Shown here in pieces: positions 3,229-28,167 of a stretch of DNA of 28,167 nt. The stretch covers positions 1 to 28,167 of IMG/VR virus record IMGVR_UViG_3300042564_005881. One strand, given 5' to 3'. The first letter of the stretch is position 1; each line of letters starts with the position of its first letter. A program made the translations under genes and the position numbers. The stretch is from a virus. The notes below the pieces were generated by a model. The model was not told the origin of the DNA and ran no database searches. It saw only the letters and a program-made list of their open reading frames with translations.

Positions 3229-3303
3229 ATGCCCTTGTTCTAATGGCAAGATGCGGGTCTCCAAAACCCTGCGATGGGAGTTCGAATCTCTCAGGTTATG
3301 CCA
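3229..3303 (+). tRNA. tRNA-Trp (CCA)
   Basis: The anticodon loop CTCCAAA gives anticodon CCA. The T arm GGGAG-TTCGAAT-CTCTC and the sequence around the anticodon closely match E. coli tRNA-Trp. Discriminator G and CCA are encoded. The acceptor stem (ATGCCCT with AGGTTAT) has one C-U mismatch and a G-U pair, the D stem is weak, and the base of the anticodon stem is mismatched, so the tRNA is somewhat degenerate. Confidence 0.85.
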
Positions 3304-3307
3304 ATGT

Positions 3308-3381
3308 GGGGTTAAAGCTTTAAGGTGAAGCAACGGACTTTTAATCCGTAGAAAAGGGATCGTTACCCTTTAGCCCTACCA
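3308..3381 (+). tRNA. tRNA-Lys (UUU)
   Basis: Acceptor GGGGTTA pairs with TAGCCCT. The anticodon stem ACGGA/TCCGT encloses CTTTTAA, so the anticodon is TTT. The T stem AAGGG/CCCTT has an unusual loop, ATCGTTA. Discriminator A and CCA are encoded. It starts four bases after tRNA-Trp. Confidence 0.9.
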
Positions 3382-3387
3382 AGTTTT

Positions 3388-3458
3388 TTCGGGTTAGTTT
3401 AATGGTAAAATTCATGCTTTGGGAGCATGTGTCGAAAGTTCGATTCTTTCACCCGAGA
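3388..3458 (+). tRNA. tRNA-Pro (UGG)
   Basis: Acceptor TTCGGGT pairs with ACCCGAG over 7 bp with a U1-G72 wobble. The anticodon stem CATGC/GCATG encloses TTTGGGA, so the anticodon is TGG. The T arm is GAAAG-TTCGATT-CTTTC. The discriminator is A. CCA is not encoded (CAC follows), so the tail would need to be added. Confidence 0.88.
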
Positions 3459-3478
3459 CACAAATAAGCAAAAAGTAC

Positions 3479-3552
3479 GCCCTTTTAGTTTAATGATAAA
3501 ACGACTGTTTTGTAATCAGTTGATGGCAGTTTGATTCTGTCAAGGGGCACCA
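3479..3552 (+). tRNA. tRNA-Thr (UGU)
   Basis: Acceptor GCCCTTT pairs with AAGGGGC. The anticodon loop TTTGTAA gives anticodon TGT, with surroundings like E. coli tRNA-Thr(UGU). The T stem is GGCAG/CTGTC. Discriminator A and CCA are encoded. Its 3' end plus eight downstream bases are duplicated at 4167-4183. Confidence 0.9.
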
Positions 3553-3560
3553 ATAATTAT
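3544..3560 (+). repeat. 17-bp direct repeat, left copy (tRNA-Thr 3' end)
   Basis: GGGGCACCAATAATTAT covers the acceptor strand and CCA of tRNA-Thr plus the following eight bases. An identical copy lies at 4167-4183. The two copies bracket the phosphoesterase gene. Confidence 0.85.
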
Positions 3561-3571
3561 AGGAGTTTATT

Positions 3572-4138
3572 ATGCCAAGTGTATATCTAGTATCTGATAC
3601 CCACTATGGGCATCTTGGTGTATGTAAATTCACAAGAAATGACGGAGTGACAAAATTAAGACCATGGGATAGTCCTGAAGAAATGGATGAAGAAATGGTT
3701 AAGAGATGGAACGAAACAGTTAAACCAAATGATAAAGTATATCATCTTGGGGATGTTGTTATTAACCGCAAGGCTATGGGGATTATGCGTAGACTGAACG
3801 GTGATAAAGTTTTGATTCGTGGTAACCATGATATCTTTCGTGATGATGAATACAGGGAACATTTTCGTGAGCTTCGTGCATATCATGTAATGAACGGAAT
3901 GATTCTGTCTCATATTCCAATTCATCCAGAAAGTCTTGGAAGATTTGGAACAAACATTCACGGACACACACATGCAAATCGTGTGATGAATGGTGAAGTA
4001 ATTGATGTTCGTTATCATTGTGTTTGTGTTGAACAAACAGATTTTAGACCTATTCTTTTTGAAGATGTCATTAAACTAATCAAAGAAGAAGGCGGTGAGG
4101 CTAATTTTCGTAATGGAAATGGACCGACAATTGATTGA
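3572..4138 (+). CDS. calcineurin-like metallophosphoesterase
   Basis: A 188-residue member of the metallophosphoesterase superfamily, binuclear-metal enzymes that hydrolyse phosphodiesters or phosphomonoesters. The metal-binding series is complete: D9 and H11 (SDTHYGH), D61 (LGD), N85-H86-D87 (RGNHD), H114 (LSHIP) and H132/H134 (HGHTH). The substrate cannot be read from the sequence; nucleic-acid or nucleotide substrates are common in phage members. AGGAG precedes the start. The gene sits alone inside the tRNA cluster between copies of the tRNA-Thr 3' end, which suggests it was inserted there as a unit. It is unrelated in length and surroundings to the second phosphoesterase at 8902-9846. Confidence 0.88.
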   Translation: MPSVYLVSDTHYGHLGVCKFTRNDGVTKLRPWDSPEEMDEEMVKRWNETVKPNDKVYHLGDVVINRKAMGIMRRLNGDKVLIRGNHDIFRDDEYREHFRELRAYHVMNGMILSHIPIHPESLGRFGTNIHGHTHANRVMNGEVIDVRYHCVCVEQTDFRPILFEDVIKLIKEEGGEANFRNGNGPTID

Positions 4139-4148
4139 TGCCTCCGAG

Positions 4149-4174
4149 AGTCCAAGAGTTTTGATTGGGGCACC
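4149..4174 (+). pseudogene. tRNA 3'-end relic
   Basis: AGTTTTGATT followed by GGGGCACCA aligns with the T loop and acceptor/CCA end of tRNA-Thr (AGTTTGATT ... GGGGCACCA), with the intervening T-stem and acceptor bases missing. No anticodon arm can be formed upstream. It appears to be the remnant left by a duplication or insertion event. Confidence 0.5.
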
Positions 4175-4183
4175 AATAATTAT
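4167..4183 (+). repeat. 17-bp direct repeat, right copy
   Basis: Identical to 3544-3560. The identity extends eight bases past the CCA, so it reflects duplication of DNA rather than conservation of a tRNA end. Confidence 0.85.
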
Positions 4184-4216
4184 TTTCGTAACATAACTTA
4201 AAAGGAGAAACAAACA

Positions 4217-4573
4217 ATGAACTACTGGGGTGAACATTTAATTTTGGATTGTGCTGGTGGAAATGATAACATCAAAGACCGTCAAAGTGTGTATAATTTC
4301 GTAAAGGAGTTAGTGCCTGCAATTGATATGAAGGCATTTGGTGAACCTTTGATCGAACACTTTGCTGCACATGCTGAAGACAAGGCAGGATTTTCTCTGG
4401 TGCAATTGATTGAGACTTCTTGCATTACTGCTCACTTTGTAAATTCCTGTGGTGATTTCTATCTGGATATTTTCTCATGCAAGCACGTTGATGAAAAGAT
4501 TGCCATTGAGATTGTCAACAAGTATTTTGCACCCAAGACAATCAAGAAGCACTTTCTAACACGACAAGCTTAG
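4217..4573 (+). CDS. speD: S-adenosylmethionine decarboxylase-like protein
   Basis: A 118-residue protein resembling the prokaryotic AdoMet decarboxylase proenzyme (SpeD), which self-cleaves to create a pyruvoyl group. It makes decarboxylated AdoMet, the aminopropyl donor for spermidine. Visible landmarks: N-terminal WGEHLILDC, the segment IETSCITAH, and LDIFSCK. Ser68, His73 and Cys88 keep the spacing of the processing Ser63, His68 and Cys83 of the Thermotoga enzyme. The usual His after the Ser is replaced by Cys69. Similar speD genes occur in cyanophages as auxiliary metabolic genes. AAGGAG precedes the ATG. The gene lies between tRNA genes. No spermidine synthase gene is visible here. Confidence 0.75.
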   Translation: MNYWGEHLILDCAGGNDNIKDRQSVYNFVKELVPAIDMKAFGEPLIEHFAAHAEDKAGFSLVQLIETSCITAHFVNSCGDFYLDIFSCKHVDEKIAIEIVNKYFAPKTIKKHFLTRQA

Positions 4574-4593
4574 TATAATCGATTTAGGTTTAC

Positions 4594-4667
4594 GCCCTCC
4601 TACTCCAATTGGTAGAGAGAACGGTCTTAGAAGCCGTGAAGTCTCAGTTCGAATCTGAGGGAGGGCA
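4594..4667 (+). tRNA. tRNA with anticodon UAG (Leu), short variable loop
   Basis: A perfect 7-bp acceptor (GCCCTCC/GGAGGGC). The anticodon stem ACGGT/GCCGT encloses CTTAGAA, so the anticodon is TAG, which reads Leu CUA/CUG codons. The T arm is CTCAG-TTCGAAT-CTGAG. The discriminator is A and CCA is not encoded. The variable region is only GAAGT, whereas bacterial Leu tRNAs normally carry a long variable arm, so the charged amino acid is uncertain. Confidence 0.8.
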
Positions 4668-4675
4668 TTAAATTT

Positions 4676-4750
4676 CTGGCGTTAGTATAATGGATAATAC
4701 CGTAGGTTTCTACCCTTCTAATGGGAGTTCGATTCTCTCACGCTGGACCA
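4676..4750 (+). tRNA. tRNA-Arg (UCU)
   Basis: Acceptor CTGGCGT pairs with ACGCTGG, including U2-G71 and G3-U70 wobbles. D stem GTAT/ATAC. The anticodon stem GTAGG/CCTTC has one mismatch and encloses TTTCTAC, so the anticodon is TCT. The T arm is GGGAG-TTCGATT-CTCTC. Discriminator A and CCA are encoded. Confidence 0.85.
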
Positions 4751-12000: not shown

Positions 12001-12938
12001 AAACAGCATTGATAACAGGTGGCGCAGGCTACTTAGGTAGTCATCTAGCAAAAACATTAAAGAAGGGTGGTTGGAAAGTTGTTGGTCTAGGGCATAAGAG
12101 ACACACACTTAATCCTTATTTTGATACGATGCATTATGCAGATATCAGAGACCAAGATGCCTTACATGATTTGTTTAGTAAAATCAAATTTGATGTGGTT
12201 GTTCATTTGGCTGCTCGAATCGAAGCGGGCATTTCATTTCAGGAACCAACTGAGTTCTATTCAGTCAATACTGGTGGTACTTGTAATCTTATTAATGTAA
12301 TGTCTCATCATGGCGTAAAGAATCTTGTATTTTCATCCACCGCAGCAGTTTATAAAGCAAAAGATTCACCCATATTGGAAAGTGATGAAAAATTTAACAA
12401 TTCTCCATATGGTAATTCTAAACTGTGTGCCGAGCAGGCAATTGAAGCTTCTGGTTTGAATTATGTTATTTTTCGATATTTCAATTTGACTGGTGCCGAC
12501 CCTGATGGTGAATTTGGCGAAGCACATGAACCAGAGACACACTTGATTCCTCGATTGATAGAAAATATAAATAACTTTCAGTTAAACGGTAATGACTATA
12601 ATACACCAGATGGCACTTGTATTAGAGATTATGTTCATGTATCGGATGTTGCAGAAGCACACATCAATGCAGCCAATTACTTACTAGAAGGCAATAAATC
12701 AATCACAATGAATCTTGGTACAAACCGAGGTCATTCTATCCTTGAGATGATCACCGCACTGGAATCAATCATCAATCAAAAAGTTACCTATACAATCAAT
12801 CCTCGGCGTAGTGGTGATGCGGATAGTTTAGTTGCCGATAACACTATTGCTAAAGAAGTGTTGAAATATAATCCAAGGTATGATATAGTAGATATCTTAA
12901 AAACCGCATATGAATGGCATAATGGCAACAAAGGCTGA
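11997..12938 (+). CDS. galE: UDP-glucose 4-epimerase-like (GalE family) protein
   Basis: A 313-residue extended short-chain dehydrogenase/reductase. The Rossmann NAD motif is GGAGYLG (residues 8-14), the catalytic set is S113-S114-T115 with Y138 and K142 (YGNSK), and RYFNLTGADPDGEFGE and RDYVHVSDVAEAH are GalE-typical. It is slightly shorter than E. coli GalE (338). It probably interconverts UDP-glucose and UDP-galactose or the N-acetyl forms, using NAD. Coupled by ATGA overlap to the glycosyltransferase upstream, it likely sets that enzyme's donor. The substrate cannot be fixed from sequence. Confidence 0.87.
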   Translation: MKTALITGGAGYLGSHLAKTLKKGGWKVVGLGHKRHTLNPYFDTMHYADIRDQDALHDLFSKIKFDVVVHLAARIEAGISFQEPTEFYSVNTGGTCNLINVMSHHGVKNLVFSSTAAVYKAKDSPILESDEKFNNSPYGNSKLCAEQAIEASGLNYVIFRYFNLTGADPDGEFGEAHEPETHLIPRLIENINNFQLNGNDYNTPDGTCIRDYVHVSDVAEAHINAANYLLEGNKSITMNLGTNRGHSILEMITALESIINQKVTYTINPRRSGDADSLVADNTIAKEVLKYNPRYDIVDILKTAYEWHNGNKG

Positions 12939-13512
12939 CAAAAAAGAATTAGACGAAATAATGAGTGCAGCCGAGACGGTTAATCTTGGATTACTTTCTG
13001 CATCTTTTCATTATCTAGGTAATGATATTGATGAAGATAGCGTGTCAAGTGCTATCCGTTGGATAGTATATGAAAATCTCAAACCAGAGCCCGAGAAAAT
13101 ACTCACACTAATGATTAATTCAGTTGGTGGTGATTTGTCTCAGGCATTTGCTTTGATTGATATAATGAAGAACTCTAAGCATCCAATAAGAACAATTGGT
13201 GTTGGTTCTGTGATATCAGCAGCGTTTTTGATTTTTGCAAGTGGTGCAAAAGGTGAAAGATTCATTGCTAGAAATACTAGTATCATGTGTCACCAATATT
13301 ACTCTTCATCCGAAGGGAAACACCACGATCTTAAAGCCTATGGTAAGGAAATGGAATCAACAAACAAAAGAATGACTGATATTCTTAAAGAAGCAACAGA
13401 TTTAGATTTGAAGAAGATAAGATCAAAATTGTTACCACCGACAGATGTGTGGATGGCTCCTGGTGACCTTATTGCACTTGGCATAGCAGATAATTATTTG
13501 AGCTACACATAA
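12910..13512 (+). CDS. clpP: ClpP-like serine protease
   Basis: A 200-residue homologue of ClpP, the proteolytic chamber that works with ClpX or ClpA unfoldases. The catalytic triad aligns with E. coli ClpP: S103 (GVGSVISAAF, in place of GQAASMGAF), H128 (IMCHQY) and D140 (KHHDLK). The SVGGD strand and SGAKGERF are also conserved. The N terminus overlaps galE by 29 bases; a second in-frame ATG at 12922 would remove four residues, and neither has a strong ribosome binding site. No Clp ATPase gene is visible, so it would pair with a host unfoldase or act alone. ClpP genes occur in some T4-like phages, where a prohead-protease-like or host-modifying role has been suggested. Confidence 0.85.
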   Translation: MNGIMATKADKKELDEIMSAAETVNLGLLSASFHYLGNDIDEDSVSSAIRWIVYENLKPEPEKILTLMINSVGGDLSQAFALIDIMKNSKHPIRTIGVGSVISAAFLIFASGAKGERFIARNTSIMCHQYYSSSEGKHHDLKAYGKEMESTNKRMTDILKEATDLDLKKIRSKLLPPTDVWMAPGDLIALGIADNYLSYT

Positions 13513-19583: not shown

Positions 19584-19881
19584 ATTTTTAGATACGAAAA
19601 CAGATGAAATTTTTGAAACGATTATGAAGATTAGTGAGAGAGAAGAATTTCTTTTAAGCAATCCTCATATTCAACCGGTGATATCCACACCAATGCTAGT
19701 GTCAAGTGTATCAACAACAGGAAAAGTACCTGATGGTTTCAAAGAGGTGCTTTCTAAAATTGCTGAGAAATATCCAAATAGTTCTGTTGCAGATAGGCAT
19801 GGTAGACGGTCAGCAAAAGAAGCAAAGACAAGAGACATTGTAAAAAAGTATACCGACAAGATGACGAAAAATATTAAATGA
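19570..19881 (+). CDS. conserved phage protein starting MPTYEF
   Basis: A 103-residue protein beginning MPTYEFLDTKTDEIFETIMKISEREEFL, a layout resembling FmdB-type zinc-ribbon proteins but without any cysteine. Then follow NPHIQPV, the SVSTTGKVPDGFKEVLSKIAEKYPNS segment and a basic C-terminal helix. Similar cysteine-free forms are widespread in T4-like phages, with unknown role. The start overlaps the preceding gene by 14 bases; the end overlaps the nuclease gene in an ATGA junction. Confidence 0.7.
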   Translation: MPTYEFLDTKTDEIFETIMKISEREEFLLSNPHIQPVISTPMLVSSVSTTGKVPDGFKEVLSKIAEKYPNSSVADRHGRRSAKEAKTRDIVKKYTDKMTKNIK

Positions 19882-20555
19882 CCTTTAACTTTATAAAATT
19901 ACCGGAATTAGATTTTGACTTAAAAGCAGAAACTACTGAATCTGGAAGAAAGTATGTAACGCCAAATGGTGCAAGGTATCCTTCCGTTACTACTGTATTG
20001 TCTTCCTACAGTAAGAAAGCAATCATGGAATGGAGACAAAGAGTTGGTGCTGAAGAAGCAAATAAAATTGCAGGTCGTGCTTCTCGCCGTGGTACTCAAT
20101 TGCATTTTTTATGTGAGAAGTATATTCTTGGTGAATTGACTGAAATGAAACGGCAGACACTAATGCCGTTAGATAAAATGATGTTTGGTCAATTGAGACC
20201 AAAGTTAGATAAGCATGTTGGTGATGTATATTGCCTTGAGCAGGCATTGTATAGTAACAGTTTGAGATTGGCAGGTCGTGTTGACTTGATTGCAGAATGG
20301 GATGGTGAGTTGTCAGTGATTGACTTCAAATCTTCCACAAAGGAAAAACAAGAAGGTTACATTCGTAATTACTTCATGCAATGTTCAGCTTATGCTGAGA
20401 TGTTTGGTGAAATTACAAATAGACCAATCAATAAGATTGTGGTAGCAATTGCAACCGAAGAAGAAGTGCCACAAGTATTTGTGAAAGACAAGAAAGAATA
20501 TTTGCCAGAATTGAATCAATTCATTGATAAATACTGGCGTGATATTGCTGTATGA
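19878..20555 (+). CDS. PD-(D/E)XK nuclease (RecB/Cas4-like exonuclease)
   Basis: A 225-residue nuclease of the PD-(D/E)XK superfamily. A helix with ASRRGTQLHFLCEKYILGE (about residues 67-86, with H76 and E80) precedes the core. The metal-binding core is GRVDLIAEWDGELSVIDFKSS (D and D-x-K). QCSAYAEMFGE (about 168-178) supplies the Q-x3-Y motif of RecB-type nucleases. It probably degrades DNA ends or host DNA, or acts in recombination. It is coupled to the preceding gene. The acceptor piece of the tmRNA begins at or just after its stop, so both may be on one transcript. Confidence 0.82.
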   Translation: MTFNFIKLPELDFDLKAETTESGRKYVTPNGARYPSVTTVLSSYSKKAIMEWRQRVGAEEANKIAGRASRRGTQLHFLCEKYILGELTEMKRQTLMPLDKMMFGQLRPKLDKHVGDVYCLEQALYSNSLRLAGRVDLIAEWDGELSVIDFKSSTKEKQEGYIRNYFMQCSAYAEMFGEITNRPINKIVVAIATEEEVPQVFVKDKKEYLPELNQFIDKYWRDIAV

Positions 20556-20559
20556 AGTA

Positions 20560-20856
20560 AAGAGAAAAGTGTTCTGGACGGGGATGCAAATTCCCCCTCC
20601 TCCACCAAAAGCATGAGATTCAATCACGGCGCCATCTGTTGTAGCAGAAGTGTAACGGATCAATCATCTACAATGCTTTTGATGGGGGAGAATAGTTTCG
20701 ACAGGGCAAAGAGTAACAGAGCGGACAGCACGGTAGGCGATGACCGTTAATCAAGCAAAAAACGTAAATGCAAACGATAGCTCTTATGAGTACGCATTAG
20801 CAGCCTAACAGCCGCTTAGGGTTTTGGTTGGTTTCCTAGTAACAGAATAACCAACC
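20560..20856 (+). ncRNA. ssrA: permuted two-piece tmRNA
   Basis: Transfer-messenger RNA for ribosome rescue, in the circularly permuted order. The acceptor piece ends at 20607 with TGGACGGGGATGC..., T stem GGGGA/TCCCC, acceptor strand CTCCTCC and encoded A-CCA. The coding piece starts at 20684 with GGGGGAGAATAGTTTCGACAGGG, whose first seven bases pair with CTCCTCC including the alanine-specific G3-U70 wobble. The resume codon GCA (20770) opens the tag ANDSSYEYALAA with stop TAA at 20806-20808, preceded by a PK1-like hairpin (ACGGT/ACCGT). The 76-base spacer has AAAGCAT (20608-20614) pairing with ATGCTTT (20673-20679). The 5' boundary is approximate. An 8-bp hairpin with TTTT at 20826-20860 ends the gene. 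Confidence 0.92.
20770..20808 (+). other. tmRNA tag reading frame
   Basis: Codons GCA to GCC then TAA give ANDSSYEYALAA, starting AND and ending ALAA as in E. coli (ANDENYALAA). The C-terminal LAA is the ClpXP/ClpAP degron. Confidence 0.95.
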
Positions 20857-20860
20857 TTTT
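20826..20860 (+). terminator. terminator / last helix of tmRNA coding piece
   Basis: GGTTGGTT (20826-20833) and AACCAACC (20849-20856) form a perfect 8-bp stem over 15 bases, followed by TTTT. It may be the terminal tmRNA helix and also terminate transcription. Confidence 0.65.
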
Positions 20861-20881
20861 ATATTATGATGGAGTGATGTT

Positions 20882-21124
20882 GTGCCTTTGATTTTAGAAA
20901 ATGTTCGTATAGAACCAATTGAAGAAATTAAGATTGCGGCAGAACCAGCAATTACGAAGATTGAAAATTCTTCGATAAATGGTAATGAATTGCTGTTTAT
21001 ATTTTTATTATTTTGCATGTTGTATCTTTTCCGTATTCAATTGTTTTATCTATTGACATTGATTGCAAAAGTGTGTATAATGGCCTTGTTCGCCTATTCA
21101 ACATATATTCTATTTCTAAAGTAA
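20882..21124 (+). CDS. small membrane protein, 80 aa
   Basis: GTG start with GGAG seven bases upstream. The N-terminal half (1-35) is acidic and likely cytoplasmic; residues about 36-78 are two closely spaced membrane helices (ELLFIFLLFCMLYLF and LFYLLTLIAKVCIMALFAY). No family is recognised. A promoter for the next gene lies in its 3' part and the stop overlaps the next ATG by one base. Confidence 0.55.
   Translation: MPLILENVRIEPIEEIKIAAEPAITKIENSSINGNELLFIFLLFCMLYLFRIQLFYLLTLIAKVCIMALFAYSTYILFLK
21053..21081 (+). promoter_or_regulatory. strong sigma70-type promoter inside a coding region
   Basis: TTGACA at 21053-21058, 17 bases, TATAAT at 21076-21081, all consensus and preceded by TGTG. 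It drives the gene at 21124. Confidence 0.75.
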
Positions 21125-21971: not shown

Positions 21972-21979
21972 TATAAATA
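21972..21979 (+). promoter_or_regulatory. T4-type late promoter
   Basis: TATAAATA, the T4 late promoter -10 sequence recognised by gp55-RNA polymerase with gp33 and sliding clamp, lies 60 bases before the gene at 22039. It is the only clear + strand copy seen in the window. Confidence 0.6.
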
Positions 21980-25895: not shown

Positions 25896-28167
25896 TTATG
25901 TAACTGGTCTTAACAGATACTTCATCATATCTGTATTATAAGGCGTAGCAGAACCTGAACCACCGCCACCACCATTTTGAGCAATATTGGTAACTGGTGC
26001 ATTAACAACTGTTGAACCTCCACCTTGCTTCATAGAATCTTCTTTATATTTTGTGTAACCAGCAAAAATATCCAACAAAGCATTTCCAGTATTTGGCGCA
26101 GACGCTAATGCTGTTGCAGCTGCAGGCATCGCACCACCACCTCCGCCTCCACGATACATGTTCTCAGCAAAAACAGTTTGTCCTATTTGTTTACCGCCAC
26201 CAGCTTGTAATTTATCTAACCATGCAATACTAGTTCCTGGGCCATATGCGTTTCTATTTGCAGCTGAAAATGAATCTAAGCTTTTAGATATGCCAGGTAA
26301 AGAAGAAGCACTTTCGTTAATCATTGCGGCTGATTTTTCATTTGGGCCTCGAATAAAGTTTGGGCTAGGTTGATGTCCGTTTTTACTCGTGCCTGTTACT
26401 GCTTGAAATGCATTTCGTTCACTCAATGTGTCAATGATAGTTCCGCCATTTTTTCTAGTTCTATTCAAAATAACTGCCATTACATTGGCATATTCATTTT
26501 TATTTGCACTTGCTTCTGCATAAACAGCTCGCATTAACATATCATGCTCTTGATCATTAATTTTACGACCCAAATAGTCTTCTATTGCTGTTCTTGAATC
26601 ACCAGAAGCTGGTGATGGTGATGTTGAAGCTAAAGCTGCGCCACCAGCATTTCTAGTTGGTGTTCTTGAAACTGAAGCTGCACCACCAGTATTTGACACT
26701 TGAGTTGCAGTTGATGATGGTGTAATTGCAGTTGCAGATTCTTCTCTAATTATTGCAGAATTTTTTTCATCTTCATCCATTTCTTTTTCTAAAGCAACAA
26801 AAAAATCATAGATTTGATAAACATCATAAACAAGTAATAATGCACCCAACGCAGAAACTAATAGAGAAAAACCAGCGGAAAATGGCGCAGCAGCAACACC
26901 AGCTACAACAGTTGCAAATTTAGCACCAGCCCAAAAACCAAACTTAGCTGAAAACTTTGAAACCATGCTTACTGATGCACCTTTTTGTACAACTTTAGTA
27001 ATAACATCAATAATTTTTTTCCATAGACCTTTATTTTTAGTCATCTCTCTATTTTCACCAACAGTGCCAAAACTGCTGAGTGATTTTCCAGCTGCTGTTG
27101 GTGATGTTGATGCTGCTCCACCAGGCAATGGTCTTATCATAGAAGCTGCAAACGCAGTCTGCAATCCTAAACTTGCAGCTGTTCCAACTTTTTCAGCAGT
27201 TGATGTTTGTGATACTGATTCTGAAGTTGGCGCTGCACCTGGAGCACCTAAAGTTTCACCACCCGTGATCTTCTCCCCTAGTGCATCTTCTGCTTGTTCT
27301 TTGCCACCAAACATCTCATAGATTTGAACTGTTGTTAAACCAGCGCCCAATAATAGTGCAAATTTACCAGCACCACCAAATTTTCCGCCTTTTTTTCCAC
27401 CTGCGGCACCAGCACCACCGCCTGGTGCTCCGGCTGCAAATGCGAACATCTTTCTAGTTGCAGCTGCAATAGCAAGTTCGAATATAACAAAACCAGCTTT
27501 AATTGCTAAAATTGCACCGCCAAGAATTTTAGCGCCATCTAAAATATTTTTTTTATAGTCTTCACCAAATATAGTTGTGAATATACTGTTTAGCATATTA
27601 TCCACACTCTTTTTAAATTCACCACCCTCAAAATACTTACCTATAGATGCTAATAAACCAGTTAATAAACCAGCTTTAAGTACAAATTTAAACAAATCAA
27701 AAATACCTCCGCCCTCTTTTTTACTACTATCAACTGGTGTTGGCGCTAATGCACCACTATTTTTTTTGTATTGCCCCTCATACTGCGCTTCTCTATCACC
27801 GGCTCTTTTAAAGAACATGTCTGCTGATTTTGTTGGACTGCCACCAGCCAACTTAACCAACTTTTGCATATTCAACCGCATGACATTGATATCTCTTGCC
27901 ATTGCAGGGAAAACAACACTATTTTTTGCCATTATCTTCATATCAAAACCAAGGCGAGTAAGCTTCTCTTCCATTGATTTTGACATATCACTATCATACC
28001 CACCTCCAGTGCTTCTTACACCACCTCCAGATGCACCATATCGATATTTTTTACCAAACATTTTTTCAAATGCGGCTCCACTAATGCCAGTTTGTGGTAA
28101 CATACCTCTAATGTCCGTTTTTTCTCTAATTCTTGCGCCAGAAGCGGATATAAAAGCCCCAAGAAAG
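25896..28167 (-). CDS. large tail/baseplate-type structural protein with SleB-like hydrolase domain (partial)
   Basis: The minus-strand frame is open from the stop at 25896 to the right edge; the first internal ATG at 28103 is preceded in frame by at least 21 sense codons, so the true start lies outside. Counted from that ATG (735 residues): hydrophobic/Gly-Ala segments near 145-165, 190-260 and 385-430, which suggest membrane-active or tape-measure-like helices. Low-complexity Ser/Thr/Ala linkers follow. A SleB (Hydrolase_2)-like domain spans about 508-650 (AVYAEASANKNEYANVMAVILNRT, FQAVTG, PNAYGPG-like). A Gly-rich tail ends the protein. It is probably a virion protein that opens peptidoglycan at DNA entry; the exact tail position is unknown. 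Confidence 0.78.
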   Translation of the reverse strand, partial: FLGAFISASGARIREKTDIRGMLPQTGISGAAFEKMFGKKYRYGASGGGVRSTGGGYDSDMSKSMEEKLTRLGFDMKIMAKNSVVFPAMARDINVMRLNMQKLVKLAGGSPTKSADMFFKRAGDREAQYEGQYKKNSGALAPTPVDSSKKEGGGIFDLFKFVLKAGLLTGLLASIGKYFEGGEFKKSVDNMLNSIFTTIFGEDYKKNILDGAKILGGAILAIKAGFVIFELAIAAATRKMFAFAAGAPGGGAGAAGGKKGGKFGGAGKFALLLGAGLTTVQIYEMFGGKEQAEDALGEKITGGETLGAPGAAPTSESVSQTSTAEKVGTAASLGLQTAFAASMIRPLPGGAASTSPTAAGKSLSSFGTVGENREMTKNKGLWKKIIDVITKVVQKGASVSMVSKFSAKFGFWAGAKFATVVAGVAAAPFSAGFSLLVSALGALLLVYDVYQIYDFFVALEKEMDEDEKNSAIIREESATAITPSSTATQVSNTGGAASVSRTPTRNAGGAALASTSPSPASGDSRTAIEDYLGRKINDQEHDMLMRAVYAEASANKNEYANVMAVILNRTRKNGGTIIDTLSERNAFQAVTGTSKNGHQPSPNFIRGPNEKSAAMINESASSLPGISKSLDSFSAANRNAYGPGTSIAWLDKLQAGGGKQIGQTVFAENMYRGGGGGGAMPAAATALASAPNTGNALLDIFAGYTKYKEDSMKQGGGSTVVNAPVTNIAQNGGGGGSGSATPYNTDMMKYLLRPVT

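Follow-up and report, generated by a model that had tools for sequence, protein, structure and literature searches.

tmRNA rescues stalled ribosomes and marks their incomplete proteins for destruction. Among phage tmRNAs, two-piece (permuted) forms account for 53 of 133 distinct examples, 50 of the 53 being marine or aquatic (PMC9004378); 79 from phages are listed in a paper on the tmRNA database. In the Rfam consensus sequences, the pair formed between D-loop and T-loop is A18/G55 in alphaproteobacterial and G18/U55 in betaproteobacterial tmRNAs. The initial annotation of the DNA described here regarded a permuted tmRNA as unusual for a phage, a view that the 53 published two-piece genes and two pattern scans of IMG/VR, each with at least 120 such stretches, do not bear out. 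The kind is already known and common in aquatic phages, and the present gene is a further member; a nucleotide search with it against annotated phages gave no match.

The window, i.e. the whole stretch of 28,167 bases that was analysed (IMG/VR record IMGVR_UViG_3300042564_005881), is a linear fragment from an uncultivated T4-like phage. Its genes include gp32, gp59, a DsbA-like regulator and an endolysin, and the gp32 protein shares 63-66% identity with those of cyanophage S-CREM1 and Pelagibacter phage HTVC008M. A PHROG transcriptional regulator occupies the gp33 position and is followed by a PD-(D/E)XK exonuclease and then directly by the tmRNA gene. Six tRNA genes (Trp, Lys, Pro, Thr, Leu, Arg) lie in two clusters at 3229-4750, and the sole long minus-strand ORF (735 aa, 25896-28103) has no match in PHROG, Pfam or NCBIfam.

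From the letters, the initial annotation had read a permuted phage tmRNA with its own tag and proposed a covariance-model search as a check; this reading has held up, and by ARAGORN, Rfam and comparison with relatives the gene is structurally complete and conserved. ARAGORN places a permuted tmRNA with the tag ANDSSYEYALAA at 20515-20899. The Rfam model RF04321 (tmRNA_permuted) matches end to end at 20546-20808 with 136.9 bits (E=4.4e-27; gathering cut-off 47 bits), and RF01850 (beta_tmRNA), which outscores the other two older lineage models and is the clan winner, gives 94.8 bits against a cut-off of 84. In keeping with RF04321, the acceptor piece precedes the coding piece, the acceptor stem has 7 bp with G3-U70, CCA stands in its proper position, and the tag frame ANDSSYEYALAA* has a stop codon and a Clp-type C-terminus. 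Direct reading confirms the 7-bp pairing, G3-U70 and the encoded CCA, all of them noted before, as were the tag in frame after a GCA resume codon (ORF 20770-20808) and the complementary linker ends AAAGCAT and ATGCTTT (20608-20614 and 20673-20679). The D-loop/T-loop pair is A18/G55 instead of the G18/U55 of the beta consensus, and the RNA is therefore called beta-like in structure, with no bacterial lineage assigned. The earlier limits of the gene, 20560 to 20856, were right at the 3' end, where the pseudoknot finishes, and too short at the 5' end, since Rfam alignment, cofolding and covariation place a strand of the P2 helix at 20546-20551. The parts of the locus are as follows.

19878-20555, plus strand: PD-(D/E)XK exonuclease (phrog_298, PF12705); its 3' end overlaps the tmRNA and the promoter-like box
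20502-20507, plus strand: weak -35-like TTGCCA, upstream of GATAAATA
20526-20533, plus strand: promoter-like box GATAAATA, differing from the T4 late box TATAAATA at one position, within the last exonuclease codons
20546-20551, plus strand: 5' strand of the P2 helix, UGCUGU, in the acceptor piece and overlapping the end of the exonuclease ORF (Rfam alignment, cofold, covariation)
20569-20607, plus strand: acceptor piece (ARAGORN, Rfam, direct reading)
20580-20596, plus strand: T-arm within the acceptor piece, loop UGCAAAU, G55 = 20586
20597-20603, plus strand: acceptor 3' strand CTCCTCC, U70 = 20601
20604 and 20605-20607, plus strand: A73 and the encoded CCA (direct reading)
20608-20683, plus strand: intervening linker of 76 nt, with 20608-20614 pairing to 20673-20679
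20684-20690, plus strand: acceptor 5' strand GGGGGAG, the 5' end of the coding piece, G3 = 20686, pairing with 20597-20603
20691-20702, plus strand: D-loop region AAUAGUUUCGAC, A18 = 20694, G19 = 20695
20725-20730, plus strand: 3' strand of the P2 helix, ACAGCA, pairing with 20546-20551 (Rfam alignment, cofold, covariation)
20770-20808, plus strand: tag frame ANDSSYEYALAA* with resume codon GCA (ARAGORN)
20816-20856, plus strand: 3' pseudoknot (read by eye and aligned by Rfam beta_tmRNA; relatives have compensated stem variants)
20816-20820 and 20835-20839, plus strand: pseudoknot stem UUAGG/CCUAG
20826-20833 and 20849-20856, plus strand: crossing pseudoknot stem GGUUGGUU/AACCAACC

The strongest evidence comes from related phage copies. 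Across 79 exonuclease-encoding loci in IMG/VR, every contig of the window's clade that is long enough has a permuted tmRNA directly behind the exonuclease, and most of the remaining loci have one nearby. The linker ranges from 25 to 196 nt in length, and its 8-bp helix is paired in 90.8% of cells over 69 copies chosen to differ; when one strand is shuffled among the sequences the mean falls to 57.4% (maximum 63%), and slid registers reach at most 52%. No search pattern fixed this helix. Some acceptor positions, and in two scans UGAU, were fixed by the patterns and are therefore not counted as evidence in that sample. T-arm and acceptor pairs show two-sided changes with pairing retained among relatives, and in two pairs of loci (L036/L037 and L038/L040) a common linker and coding piece is combined with acceptor strands that both differ, together and with pairing kept. 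P2 covaries as well (0.764 paired versus 0.451 when shuffled, maximum 0.567, with some copies misplaced by the regular expressions), its variants in relatives including TGCTG/CAGCA, GGTTG/CAACC, GTAAC/GTTAC and GACTG/CAGTC. Because linker, acceptor, T-arm and P2 covary across divergent phage copies, the gene is very probably functional; it has been maintained in evolution. One relative (G014) has a weak second RF04321 match of 20.7 bits, which was discarded because it overlaps genes for ordinary tRNA-Tyr and tRNA-Ile.

Loop positions 18 and 55 are coupled. All 70 copies with U55 have G18, and the combination of A18 with U55 occurs in none; 22 of these copies print as 'AGG' in the script output since an A precedes GG, and they are counted as G18. 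Of 163 copies with G55, 146 carry A18 and 17 read AGG, where the register is ambiguous. A switch from G18-U55 to A18-G55 as a novelty of phages was considered and rejected, and the pair is treated as a lineage signature, since A18/G55 is already the Rfam alphaproteobacterial consensus.

The same relatives bear on whether the gene is a host ssrA copy or fragment, left by transduction or integration and functionless in the phage. There is precedent for such remnants, as integration often targets ssrA and fragments of the gene can occur in prophages (PMC9004378). The window gene, however, is complete, lies within a T4-like replication and transcription module, is common to many related phages, and covaries at several helices, which already disfavours this origin. 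Moreover, a degenerate-codon search for its tag ANDSSYEYALAA gave 0 hits in 84,980 species genomes. A host remnant is thus highly improbable, and the absence from these genomes makes the tag appear to be the phage's own. Two further searches add little: a strict beta-type pattern found no matches in the genomes and was probably too strict to say much, and a plasmid search without a match carries no weight, its 97-nt query having been a generic tmRNA-like string, not window sequence. Distinct permuted tags have a variable middle and end in LAA in 121 of 145 cases. The tags of loci L041 and L044 end in RIAA (ANDSQFRIAA and ANDESYRIAA), which resembles the outcome of paired +1/-1 indels in an ALAA end with the stop codon kept; these two loci also have in common a 3' pseudoknot unlike that of the others, which suggests module exchange within the gene.

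Upstream, the tmRNA gene is intertwined with the exonuclease ORF. The last 11 exonuclease codons (9 of them degenerate) show no synonymous change in 13 relatives (permutation p = 0.0008, kinship ignored) versus 54% of all degenerate exonuclease codons varying in the same comparison, and this invariant end contains GATAAATA and then the P2 strand. In a sister clade the exonuclease is without the C-terminal extension, the tmRNA lies 2 kb further on, and P2 begins just past another stop codon. Of the regions upstream of 188 divergent phage tmRNAs, 74 have an ATAAATA box in the slot from -50 to -28, where shuffling gives 2.3 on average and 7 at most; among background windows of the same contigs the figure is 15 of 1722 (0.9%); 48 of the 74 box-carrying regions also have a TTGACA-like -35. 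The window is not an independent test of the box, which was noticed there first and tested afterwards. Within the window, ATAAATA occurs 5 times against 10.9 expected, and a copy of TATAAATA stands at 21972, ahead of the endolysin cluster. A perfect sigma-70 consensus, TTGACA-N17-TATAAT, is seen at 21053-21081, downstream of the tmRNA and inside small ORFs.

From this recurrence we infer that the tmRNA has a promoter of its own, which would set the 5' end of the acceptor piece. The window box is one base off consensus and has a poor -35, which makes it no more than a putative promoter, of unproven early or late timing. Box-carrying contigs do not have T4-type marker genes more often than the others, and the box was therefore not accepted as evidence of T4 late transcription; where TTGACA accompanies the box, an ordinary sigma-70 promoter is an equally good fit. 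The chances seem about even that phage permuted tmRNAs are often stand-alone units behind an ATAAATA-type box, many with a sigma-70 -35 and possibly readable both early and late, in which the transcript starts just before P2, the acceptor piece needs no 5' trimming, and the overlap in the window's clade places the exonuclease end under a double constraint. The competing idea that the tmRNA is made only as the tail of a gp33-exonuclease operon has a corollary: the P2 strand overlaps the last exonuclease codons and the exonuclease stop codon lies inside the acceptor piece, so excision of that piece would remove the stop and leave a nonstop mRNA, itself a tmRNA substrate, in a feedback loop. It is nonetheless unlikely, given a promoter-like box just 5' of P2 that recurs at the same slot in unrelated contexts, and for the same reason a separate primary transcript is the simpler reading.

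On this simpler reading, transcription would probably start at about 20539, from the box in the exonuclease gene end, and the start site would itself form the 5' end of the acceptor piece. The precursor is predicted to be a single long hairpin composed of the acceptor stem, CCA opposite UGAU, and the linker helix that covariation supports. The last four linker bases, UGAU (20680-20683), lie opposite ACCA with a single C74.A mismatch. As pairing between leader and RCCA slows RNase P (PMC9433436), this mismatch may matter for cleavage. UGAU precedes G1 in 35 of 49 copies from a less constrained sampling. Host tRNA-processing enzymes would excise the linker, leaving ends at 20607 (CCA) and G20684, and the acceptor stem, P2 and contacts between D- and T-loops would hold the two pieces together. 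General tmRNA biology suggests charging by the host AlaRS through G3-U70, this determinant being the only feature seen that bears on alanine, followed by delivery to stalled ribosomes by host SmpB; the ALAA-ending tag would then direct the products to Clp-type proteolysis. In infected cells this would most likely serve to keep ribosomes free.

SmpB was detected in none of the 49 viral contigs by a search whose control worked, an absence that is not final because the contigs are fragments; with no phage SmpB found, the RNA would have to work with that of the host. This dependence also suits an RNA that acts mainly as a competitor, occupying host SmpB or ribosomes and damping host trans-translation. 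Inhibition of an endogenous tmRNA by a phage one is on record, and the CDS-less tmRNA of phage DS6A is reported to act in this way (cited in PMC11915505). A pure competitor would have no need of a tag frame, yet the phage copies retain a complete one whose LAA end is conserved, and this role is accordingly quite improbable. A ClpP-family protease is encoded at 12910-13512 (PF00574, E=3e-30), and by eye its catalytic Ser, His and Asp appear intact. Its gene lies away from any recognised head gene and overlaps the end of a galE-like gene, and the family is present in 16 of 36 related contigs, mainly in the clade with beta-type tmRNA; that the protease has anything to do with the tag is no more than possible. 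Overall, we give a probability of roughly 0.85 to a permuted ssrA that is functional, is maintained by its T4-like phage and in structure comes closest to the betaproteobacterial type, with promoter, processing, host charging and delivery as proposed.

The window thus adds a well-supported clade to the known two-piece tmRNAs of phages and indicates that such genes are common among viral metagenome contigs. Covariation of linker and P2, the promoter slot common to many copies and the overlap with the exonuclease ORF were not found in the literature searched and may have been reported; the promoter slot and the overlap raise the testable question of whether phages schedule trans-translation with their own tags during infection. 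The closest cultured counterpart is Melnitz (Methylophilales phage EXVC044M, MZ577097; PMC9004378), likewise a T4-like phage (Kyanoviridae) with a two-piece tmRNA. Its ssrA also encodes CCA and has UGAU before G1, its tag is ANDNYVPVDYALAA, and its neighbourhood is similar: a PD-(D/E)XK nuclease lies upstream, and downstream come a late-transcription coactivator, a gp41-helicase loader and an ssDNA-binding protein. Unlike the window gene, the Melnitz tmRNA is related to alphaproteobacterial ones, and a glutamine riboswitch is reported (PMC9004378); two small genes separate nuclease and ssrA, so that there is no overlap, and its box has a full TTGACA -35, a perfect TTGACA-N17-TATAAATA preceding ssrA, which its authors place behind an early promoter. 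Betaproteobacterial tmRNA (RF01850) shares with the window the order of the pieces and the 3' pseudoknot after the tag, whereas the model consensus has ACCc where the phage gene encodes CCA, and its loops pair as G18/U55 instead of A18/G55. The A18/G55 pair itself is shared with alphaproteobacterial tmRNA (RF01849), but the alpha T-loop is GGCgGUA as opposed to UGCAAAU in the window, and for the remainder of the window RNA the beta model gives the higher score.
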